From positions 1 to 31,766 of IMG/VR virus record IMGVR_UViG_3300005939_000027: DNA of 31,766 bases; one strand, written 5' to 3'. The notes beneath the pieces are model-generated. The model worked only from the letters and a program-made list of their open reading frames with translations, searched no databases and was not told the origin of the DNA. This DNA comes from a virus. The first letter of the stretch is position 1. Each line of letters starts with the position of its first letter. Made by a program: the position numbers and the translations under genes. Of the stretch, positions 19,667 to 26,197 are shown piece by piece.

Positions 19667-19694
19667 TTGACAAGATATGCGGTTCTGATATTAT
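19667..19694 (+). promoter_or_regulatory. Promoter of structured RNA copy 1
   Basis: TTGACA (19667-19672), 16-bp spacer, TGA followed by TATTAT (19689-19694), an extended -10. The expected first base, about 19701, is exactly the start of the 10-base arm AAGAGGTGCA of the terminal stem. The agreement of promoter and RNA boundary supports both calls. Confidence 0.85.
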
Positions 19695-19700
19695 GTAGTC

Positions 19701-19995
19701 AAGAGGTGCAGCACATACTAGTTAATAAGTGGCAGGGTACTGGCTTGTAGGTTTCCTTACAGCGACAAGTCTGGAATTGACCACTATAAATAAACGCCAA
19801 GCATACTAGTTTGCAGAATTCTAAATAAAGGGGTAAGGTTAAAACCTGAGGTATCACGGGTTCCCGACTCAACGGCTAACCAGACCAATGAGATAGGTGA
19901 TGTACTTAAACTCTACCAAGAGACAATGGCTAATAGAGTTGATAACTTTATTCCCCTAAGGGGTACTGGATTGTCATAACTATATTGCACCTCTT
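19701..19995 (+). ncRNA. Structured noncoding RNA, copy 1 (about 295 nt core)
   Basis: The ends AAGAGGTGCA (19701-19710) and TGCACCTCTT (19986-19995) are perfectly complementary. Inside, AGTGG (19728-19732) pairs with CCACT (19781-19785) around a variable hairpin; a hairpin GCA...TGC near 19801-19814 carries ACTAGT (19805-19810), which can pair with ACTAGT at 19717-19722 as a long-range contact. Further helices: AGGTTAAAACCT near 19835, CGGGTTCCCG near 19857, and AACTCTA...TAGAGTT near 19909-19943. No ORF is convincing. The core matches 25030-25222. No U-run follows the 3' arm, so the RNA may be processed or extend to the terminators at 20596-20665. It does not match tmRNA, and group I intron core motifs were not found. 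Confidence 0.8.
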
Positions 19996-20104: not shown

Positions 20105-20359
20105 TGTGGTCCACATTTGTGATTTACATTATGCGAAGTGTGGTCCACATAAAGTATTACCTTTAAGAAGTGTGTTGTTTGATGTTATGCGAAGTATGTG
20201 GTTGTGGGTTAGACAAAATGCTAATACAAGATACATTAAGACTACATTTACATTCATTTATGTGGTTCACATTACTATCTATTGCTTTTAATAGAATAAT
20301 ATCTTTCTTAGCTTAGTCTTTCTCTTCTATATTGTCTATTGTTTAATATGTGGTTCACA
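20105..20359. promoter_or_regulatory. Array of four TGTGGTYCACA palindromes
   Basis: TGTGGTCCACA lies at 20105-20115 and 20139-20149; TGTGGTTCACA at 20261-20271 and 20349-20359. The first two are perfect odd palindromes and the last two have one changed half-site base. A flanking ATGCGAAGT precedes the second and recurs at 20187-20195 next to a half-site ATGTGGT. A fifth perfect copy (TGTGGACCACA, the reverse complement) lies inside the lysozyme gene at 24113-24123. The form is that of dimeric regulator operators or origin iterons. No protein in the window can be assigned as the binder. Confidence 0.8.
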
Positions 20360-20595: not shown

Positions 20596-20614
20596 GCTCC
20601 GGTCCGGAGCTTTT
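20596..20614 (+). terminator. Rho-independent terminator 1 before early promoter
   Basis: GCTCCG-GTC-CGGAGC (20596-20610) is a perfect stem followed by TTTTCTCTT. It should stop rightward transcripts from the structured-RNA promoter before the early genes. The GC-rich stem is conspicuous in AT-rich surroundings. Confidence 0.75.
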
Positions 20615-20641
20615 CTCTTATTCTCTTATATTAAATCTATT

Positions 20642-20665
20642 CTCTGTTTAATGACAGAGTTTTTT
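20642..20665 (+). terminator. Rho-independent terminator 2 before early promoter
   Basis: CTCTGT (20642-20647) and ACAGAG (20654-20659) form a perfect 6-bp stem with loop TTAATG, followed by six T. It is in tandem with the terminator at 20596 and only 28 bp before the -35 of the first early promoter, so it insulates that promoter. Confidence 0.85.
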
Positions 20666-24533: not shown

Positions 24534-24914
24534 ATGATAATACCAGAGCTAAAAAAATATCCTTTAAGGTATCGTAAGATAGGAGGGTATAAATACTACT
24601 TCCCGAGACGAGGAGAGAGTTTAATACCACCGAGAATACTTCTTTTAATTTTTGGAACAGGGAATACTTTAGACTGGAAAGCAAAAACTCTGTCAGAAAA
24701 GGAAAGATATTATGAAAAGGTAATCCGTTGTAAGAGAAGGTATCCTGTTTGGAAAGTCTGTGAGTGTGAATTAGAACTTGTATTTATTGAGAAGAGTAGT
24801 CAGTTAAAGAAGCGATGCGAGTTCTGTGCTCATTCCCGCATTTCAGCAGGAAGTTATTCCGCTGGGAATTCTCAAATTAAGACTAAAAACACGAAAACGC
24901 TTGACAAGATTTGA
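24534..24914 (+). CDS. Unknown protein (126 aa) with C-terminal Cys cluster
   Basis: The ATG at 24534 is chosen because the promoter's start site (about 24512) rules out upstream ATGs, and because it follows AATAAT as elsewhere. The protein (MIIPELKKYPLRYRKIGGYK) is basic. CKRRYPVWKVCECELELVFI and KKRCEFCAHSRISAGSY contain Cys pairs that could bind zinc. It resembles no family I can name. The last codons (TLDKI) are made by the -35 box of the next promoter. Confidence 0.6.
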   Translation: MIIPELKKYPLRYRKIGGYKYYFPRRGESLIPPRILLLIFGTGNTLDWKAKTLSEKERYYEKVIRCKRRYPVWKVCECELELVFIEKSSQLKKRCEFCAHSRISAGSYSAGNSQIKTKNTKTLDKI

Positions 24915-24929
24915 TGTTTCTGATATATT
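24901..24929 (+). promoter_or_regulatory. Strong promoter upstream of a hairpin pair
   Basis: TTGACA (24901-24906), 17 bp, extended -10 TGA-TATATT (24924-24929). It overlaps the final codons and stop of the 126-aa gene. The start is expected near 24936, and the transcript meets a terminator about 70 nt later. Confidence 0.85.
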
Positions 24930-24963
24930 GGTTTTGTTCTTTAAAACAACATTAAACAATCGT

Positions 24964-25012
24964 CCATGACCACAGATAACGGCATCTACTGTCATGGAGG
25001 GTGCCGTTTTCT
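24964..25012 (+). terminator. Terminator with a mutually exclusive alternative hairpin
   Basis: AACGGCATCT (24978-24987) pairs with GGGTGCCGTT (24999-25008), two G-U pairs included, followed by a T-rich run: a strong terminator. CCATGAC (24964-24970) pairs perfectly with GTCATGG (24991-24997), which lies in the terminator's loop, so the two form alternative folds or a strained pseudoknot. This is the layout of a regulated attenuator, or of a small stable RNA of about 80 nt. Confidence 0.8.
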
Positions 25013-25029
25013 GTTTTATCATACTTTAT

Positions 25030-25222
25030 TATACTAGATATAATTGTGGCAGGGAGGGTAGACTTTCTATATTTATTTGACCACATTAAATAAAAGCCCC
25101 AGCATTCTAGTTATGCAGGAATAGATACTTGCAATGCCTGTGCTAGTAGGGTTAAATTACTAGCCAGAGTTGAGGTCCTAAAAAAGAAGCGGTAGCAGTG
25201 AGCCATTTCGCTGTCGTTTTTT
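25030..25222 (+). ncRNA. Structured noncoding RNA, copy 2 (about 190 nt)
   Basis: Shares with copy 1, in order: ATACTAG, TAA, GTGGCAGGG, TTGACCAC, AAATAAA, GCC, then the AGCAT..CTAGTT..TGCAG hairpin. Helix TGTGG (25045-25049) pairs with CCACA (25081-25085). Hairpin GCAT/ATGC (25102-25105 with 25113-25116) has a loop whose TCTAGT (25106-25111) can pair with ACTAGA (25033-25038). A copy-specific hairpin is GCTAGTA (25142-25148) with TACTAGC (25158-25164). It ends in a terminator: GCAGTGA (25195-25201) with TCGCTGT (25208-25214), then CG and six T. No own -35 is visible; it may be reached only by readthrough of the attenuator. Confidence 0.8.
25195..25222 (+). terminator. Terminator of RNA copy 2
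   Basis: GCAGTGA-GCCATT-TCGCTGT, a 7-bp stem with G-U pairs, is followed by CG and six T (25217-25222). It sets the 3' end of the second structured RNA. Confidence 0.8.
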
Positions 25223-25413
25223 CTACACATTTTTATGAGTAGTTTTTTGAGGAAATGAGGTATAATCTCTCCCAGAGACAAGGGAACAAAGAGATTTATT
25301 TAATAACCTTATGGGGGATTAACTAACCCATTACCTGTGATGGACTTGAATATCAAACAGACTTGATGAGTAAGAAAGAGTTCGTTGGCGGTCTGAAGAA
25401 ATAAATACGCTGG
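25223..25413 (+). other. Non-coding gap before the NinG-like gene
   Basis: No convincing ORF. Contains a TATAAT (25261-25266) without a good -35, and a hairpin in which ATGGG near 25312 pairs with CCCAT near 25328. A 12-codon frame (MSKKEFVGGLKK) at about 25366 lacks supporting signals. Possibly a leader of an upstream transcript. Confidence 0.35.
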
Positions 25414-25442
25414 TTGACAAATAAGGTTAATCGTGATAAACT
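25414..25442 (+). promoter_or_regulatory. Promoter for the NinG-like gene
   Basis: TTGACA (25414-25419), 17 bp, extended -10 TGA-TAAACT (25437-25442). Expected start about 25449, some 30 bp before the ATG at 25480. Confidence 0.8.
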
Positions 25443-25906: not shown

Positions 25907-26197
25907 ATGAAAACAAGATACGAAGAAATATACAACATATACACAAAGCACCTGTTAGAGAAAGGAAAACCGCCAACTTATGCTTTTATAGGAAAAGAAC
26001 TTAATATAACCAGAGAGGGTGTAAGGTTCTTCTTAGTAGAAATGGAAAAAGCAGGTTATGTTATGAGGTTAAAAAAGAGTAGCATCTTTTGGTGCTTCTC
26101 GATTGAAAAGTTTTCCAAAAAGGAAATGCCAGAAATGTTTGAAGGAACTATGGATGCACTTAATAATTTAACAATAAGACAAACGCTTGACAAATAA
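25907..26197 (+). CDS. Winged helix-turn-helix DNA-binding protein
   Basis: A 96-residue protein. TRYEEIYNIYTKHLLEKGKPPTYAFIGKELNITREGVRFFLVEMEKAGYV gives helix, then a helix-turn-helix (IGKELN-ITRE-GVRFFLVEME) and a wing, resembling the LexA-type N-terminal DNA-binding domain. A C-terminal acidic helix replaces any protease or effector domain. Likely a phage regulator; it could bind the repeated promoters or the palindromes, but no operator can be assigned. It ends QTLDK, again because of the following promoter. Confidence 0.75.
   Translation: MKTRYEEIYNIYTKHLLEKGKPPTYAFIGKELNITREGVRFFLVEMEKAGYVMRLKKSSIFWCFSIEKFSKKEMPEMFEGTMDALNNLTIRQTLDK

Follow-up and report, generated by a model that had tools for sequence, protein, structure and literature searches.

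A duplicated noncoding element of about 290 bases in a phage genome, probably a structured RNA

Phage HK022 carries two structured RNAs per genome, putL and putR, which are similar to each other in sequence and each of which lies after a promoter and before terminators (PMC9378689). The put RNAs modify RNA polymerase in cis (PMC9378689). They are about 70 nt long, consist of two stem-loops, and bind the zinc-binding domain of the RNA polymerase β′ subunit. The pistol ribozyme is an RNA that cleaves itself at a G-U junction. Its catalytic core has A32, G40, and G42 as conserved bases (PMC6154101). The catalogue of structured noncoding RNAs from uncultivated phages is still thin.

The window, here the whole stretch of 31,766 nucleotides that was analysed (IMG/VR record IMGVR_UViG_3300005939_000027), contains a duplicated noncoding element of about 290 bases on the plus strand of a phage genome, and the probability that it is a structured RNA is estimated at roughly 0.85. 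Copy 1 occupies 19701–19995 (295 bases) and copy 2 occupies 25030–25321 (292 bases). A third copy of 289 bases occurs in the contig IMGVR_UViG_3300027784_000002 (41,206 bases, hereafter L064), whose possibly incomplete record yielded one copy, and these three are the only distinct sequences known. Similar to the put RNAs, the window element has two copies per genome, downstream of promoters and ahead of terminator-like hairpins. In contrast to put, its 5′ domain (domain A) is a predicted pseudoknot within a unit of about 290 nt. A blastn search against phages found no put-like sequence similarity, and the predicted architecture is unlike that of put.

The region described in the first-pass annotation is domain A, which is thus the 5′ part of a larger noncoding unit. 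Domain A consists of a hairpin (P1) inside a 6-bp long-range contact (X), and a second hairpin, domain B, lies in the 3′ part. Both ends are common to copy 1 and copy 2, and the middle part of copy 1 is unlike the middle of copy 2 and L064. The open reading frames inside the unit are short, and the alignment of copy 2 with L064 contains many indels that are not divisible by three; both were counted for an RNA rather than a coding reading. In the same alignment no frame is conserved across the unit. A tRNA and tmRNA search of the window found none. Rfam searches of both copies and L064, run at the gathering score and again with permissive filters up to E 10, gave only chance-level matches below the cut-off, and with no Rfam family matching its sequence the element appears to belong to no known RNA family.

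In copy 1, domain A extends over 19717–19816 and is homologous to 25033–25118 in copy 2 and to 10273–10351 in L064. Local alignment of the two window copies scores 56.5, and the best of 500 dinucleotide-preserving shuffles reached 42.5. The predicted contact X of copy 1 joins ACTAGT (19717–19722) to ACTAGT (19805–19810), and helix P1 joins AGTGG (19728–19732) to CCACT (19781–19785). In copy 2, on the same strand, X is ACTAGA/TCTAGT (25033–25038/25106–25111) and P1 is TGTGG/CCACA (25045–25049/25081–25085), while L064 has TCTAGA/TCTAGA in X and AGTGG/TCACT in P1. The conserved order on the 5′ side is the X strand (ACTAGW/TCTAGA), about six A/U bases, GTGG of P1, an invariant CAG, and GG. On the 3′ side it continues with a loop of variable length, the 3′ strand of P1, UAAAUAAA, GCC, and a hairpin GCA(U)...(A)UGC around the 3′ strand of X. 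The near-invariant single-stranded core, made of CAGGG, UUGA, UAAAUAAA, GCC, and AGC, encircles the variable loop. Folding of copy 1 and L064 extends P1 by the invariant CAG (19733–19735) and UUG (19777–19779), with A19780 bulged.

Between copies 1 and 2, the outer pair of P1 changes from A-U to U-A and the inner end pair of X from U-A to A-U. Both double changes, and the copy 1 letters and positions (19717–19810), are as the first-pass annotation had described them, and its second copy is here placed at 25033–25111. That annotation regarded these changes in two copies as enough to establish selection on pairing in both helices, which was too strong. All the changes sit at terminal A-U pairs, and the two-copy evidence is for this reason suggestive (column permutation with copies 1 and 2 alone, P=0.0018). 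In addition, the X boxes are near-palindromes of CTAG, so that a reading of them as direct repeats or operators would give identical boxes too.

The third homologue strengthens the claim of selection. In L064 the outer pair of X is doubly changed (A-U to U-A), so that both end pairs of X show double changes among the three sequences, and P1 has a consistent change from G-C to G-U that keeps the pairing. Across the three sequences, 33 of 33 cells of X and P1 hold standard pairs, with double changes at three pairs and a one-sided change at one more. Seven of the 12 variable core columns fall in X and P1, and none of them breaks a pair. When the partner strands are slid by one to three columns, pairing over the whole structure drops to 25–40% and no double change is seen. 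The joint permutation over three sequences gives P of about 5e-6 when core columns of the same base are permuted and about 0.008 when shuffling is confined to the helices, and both values are rough with n=3. For the counting alignment, copies 1 and 2 had their variable P1 loop shortened by hand to align the flanks, and the helices were left unaltered. In its 3′ half, the pattern that found L064 prescribed CTAG and AGCA, so conservation there partly reflects search selection; the discriminating end pairs and helix P1 were not fixed by it. Three near relatives of the window phage (L003, L005, and L007) add no covariation because they are identical in the region. Overall, the pairing record supports the view that X and P1 are kept paired by selection.

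The same boxes could also act as DNA. Here, the CTAG boxes would be duplicated operator-like or recombination sites, and their complementarity would come from the palindromic CTAG itself. Copy 1 (CATACTAGTT) and L064 (ATTCTAGATAT) do have the same box twice, as direct repeats that extend beyond the contact. However, copy 2 decides between RNA pairing and a direct repeat because its boxes, ACTAGA and TCTAGT, are exact complements and yet are neither identical nor palindromic. Moreover, P1, which is itself not palindromic, also covaries, and the surrounding single-stranded core is conserved. A DNA-level element is accordingly rated as improbable.

The 3′ strand of X sits in a loop of 7–8 bases closed by GCA(U)/(A)UGC. 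This hairpin (HP) lies at 19801–19814 in copy 1, with GCA/TGC as its stem, and at 25102–25105/25113–25116 in copy 2, and it makes domain A a candidate loop pseudoknot, as first proposed from copies 1 and 2. The geometry fits that proposal, but the closing hairpin is invariant across the three sequences and shows no covariation, and folding alone gives it a probability of 0.04–0.11 and prefers contact X over it. A loop pseudoknot in domain A is thus plausible as a structural model. Energy folding of the isolated domain assigns X a probability of about 0.9 in L064 and copy 2 but about 0.1 in copy 1. For P1 the values are 0.95 (copy 1), 0.74 (L064), and 0.14 (copy 2).

Domain A resembles ribozymes in part. 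Similar to the genuine pistols (RF02679) of Microbacterium phage Camille and Curtobacterium phage Ayka, it has in the same order a P1 hairpin, AGGG in the loop, an AUAAAUA linker directly 3′ of P1, and AGCCC followed by AAGC, the last being present in copy 1 and L064. In contrast to pistol, the three sequences have just two or three bases between UAAAUA and GCC, too few for a P2 strand. All three carry A where pistol has G42, an insert widens the P1 loop, the AAG before CC is missing from copy 1, and the element has the extra 5′ contact X. The pistol model had no match at E ≤ 10 in the window, L064, or L005 records; two real phage pistols score 36 and 62 bits with it. Those pistol ribozymes are intergenic and unannotated in their records, at positions 301–359 for Camille (L104, near the cut-off) and 299–378 for Ayka (L105). 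Twister ribozymes (RF02684 and relatives) contain strings such as AUAAxAGUGGxAGGG and CCCAAGC, which the element shares. However, the twister strand order does not fit the element, there is no P4 around CCCAAGC, and the twister-P5 model RF02684 gave no candidates in the window or the L064 record, even at E 10. A self-cleaving ribozyme related to pistol or twister would therefore be a doubtful identification. The missing P2, the A in place of G42, the larger P1 loop, and the silence of both models keep the element from being filed as a ribozyme.

Scans of IMG/VR with core patterns gave real matches only in the near-identical contig IMGVR_UViG_3300022868_000119 and in L064, the one true new member. 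The window and the L064 record have significant DNA similarity only at 25030–25321 (292 bases, 70% identity over 306 columns, E 2e-22) and in domain A of copy 1. Among 25 window proteins compared, four have recognisable relatives in L064, at 36–63% identity, and none is structural: an SLT-type lysozyme, NinG, and the products of two small genes at 25907 (winged-helix-like) and 28599. The noncoding element is the best-conserved DNA between these two dissimilar phages. Among GTDB species genomes, a pattern scan gave 32 matches, all of them due to chance on inspection. Similarly, blastn of the RNA and of T2 and domain B against phages and plasmids returned chance matches only, and the T2 pattern was found in none of 380 genomes from the phylum of a Nomurabacteria MAG. 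A window phosphoesterase-like protein has remote relatives only, in 3 of 380 genomes of that phylum. Covariance model R1 was searched against two draws of about 380 genomes each, from the phylum and the class of the same MAG, and a single candidate at E 0.003 was rejected as low-complexity and expected by chance.

Upstream of copy 1, a plus-strand sigma-70-type promoter, TTGACA-16-TATTAT, lies at 19667–19694 (11/12 in the consensus scan, with TG before the -10 hexamer and an inferred start site). Copy 1 is closed by a terminal helix of 10–11 bp between AAGAGGTGCAG (19701–19711) and TTGCACCTCTT (19985–19995), and none of 200 shuffles was as good. The same helix was not found in copy 2, where shuffles were as good in 90% of cases, and it is weak and not significant in L064. 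Domain B forms a hairpin at 19909–19940 in copy 1 (AACTCTA CCA AGAGACAA TGG CTAA TAGAGTT) and at 25264–25296 in copy 2 (AATCTCT CCC AGAGACAA GGG AACAA AGAGATT). The fold is the same in the three copies, and the stem changes on both sides between copies. Copy 1 lacks T2, T3, and a terminator at its own end. Two tandem terminator-like sites follow on the plus strand at 20596–20659 (20596–20610 and 20642–20659) in the terminator scan. The noncoding stretch after copy 1 also contains the palindrome TGTGGTYCACA four times (20105–20115, 20139–20149, 20261–20271, and 20349–20359). A second repeat, TTATGCGAAGTRTG, occurs in this stretch at about 20129 and 20187, and together these repeats have the look of operators or origin iterons.

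Copy 2 is preceded by the plus-strand promoter TTGACA-17-TATATT at 24901–24929 (11/12 consensus). The promoters at 19667, 24477, and 24901 share an extended -10 (TCTGATATTAT or TCTGATATATT) and likely form a common phage promoter class. Directly before domain A is T1 (24979–25018), a terminator-like hairpin ACGGCA/TGCCGT with a T-rich tail, and the T1 found at this position in L064 is a different one. The leader at 24962–25018 contains interleaved complementary pairs, CCATGAC/GTCATGG and ACGGCA/TGCCGT, which could be an attenuator or a pseudoknot. It also contains TGACCACA, which equals the 3′ strand of P1 plus its left flank. An ORF of 23 codons (MTTDNGIYCHGGCRFLFYHTLLY) spans 24966–25037, and its TAG stop codon falls within ACTAGA, a contact strand in copy 2. 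A perfect -10-like TATAAT is present between X and P1 in copy 2 (25039–25044) and L064 (10279–10284) and is absent in copy 1. HK022 putL carries a -10-like sequence, which is thought to cause sigma-dependent pausing (PMC9378689).

Two further hairpins follow domain A within copy 2. T2 (25180–25222) resembles a bidirectional terminator, matches in the terminator scan, and is near-identical in L064 (10417–10460), with predicted hairpin energies of -13.9 and -12.6 kcal/mol. It lies about 65–70 bases after domain A in copy 2 and L064 and falls within the conserved unit. Together with T6, T2 is conserved nearly letter for letter, far beyond what a terminator needs. T3 (25223–25248), identified from the alignment, is a small hairpin with CTAC/GTAG (CCAA/TTGG in L064) followed by T6; its helix is weak and is not predicted by folding of the excerpt.

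The position downstream of promoters and ahead of terminator-like hairpins, the duplication within one genome, the near-invariant unpaired core, and the conservation above that of coding DNA together point to an RNA that may act on host machinery. By analogy with the put RNAs of HK022, its closest counterpart in function, the element could, as a tentative best guess, be a cis-acting regulator of transcription that works as nascent RNA. The strong promoters immediately before the copies (19667 and 24901) would drive its transcription, and domain A would fold into a compact pseudoknot and bind the transcription machinery or a regulator. Domain A would then decide the passage through terminator-like hairpins, namely T2 and T3 in copy 2 and L064 and the sites at 20596 and 20642 after copy 1. 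In favor of this proposal, each window copy has a strong promoter-like site ahead of domain A, and terminator-like hairpins follow. On the other hand, T1 precedes the element in copy 2 and L064, T2 is inside the unit, and terminator-like sites in the region overall are no more frequent than in shuffles. Readthrough is also not needed for the downstream genes because they have their own promoters in the promoter scan, at 25414 in the window and 10620 in L064.

Almost as likely as the put-like regulator is a stand-alone trans-acting RNA of about 290 bases with a host or phage partner, such as a host RNA or protein. T2 and T3 would then be internal hairpins or the 3′ end of the RNA. The unit is discrete with similar lengths in its three copies, copy 1 has the terminal helix and its own strong promoter, and the element is conserved above all else between the two phages. 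In contrast, the terminal helix is not retained beyond copy 1 at any significant strength, copy 1 has no terminator to end such an RNA, and its middle part departs from that of the others.

A riboswitch-like leader, in which domain A would sense a ligand or protein and control the formation of T2, is rather unlikely. The near-invariant pseudoknot core, the variable loop, and the spacing of T2 behind domain A in copy 2 and L064 are consistent with an aptamer and attenuator. However, T2 is missing from copy 1, the linker between domain A and T2 is not conserved, no conserved alternative pairing was seen, and no Rfam riboswitch matches.

The three sequences, the two covarying helices, and the near-invariant core are enough to design direct tests. 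With a fairly small chance, the element may represent a new class of phage RNA, in which a P1 hairpin is enclosed by a loop-anchored 6-bp contact. Its members would either modify the host's transcription machinery by RNA alone or be catalytic RNAs of a new kind, and they would be common to phages with almost no shared genes. That the best-conserved DNA between two such phages is noncoding implies strong constraint, which probably acts by way of a host partner that both share.
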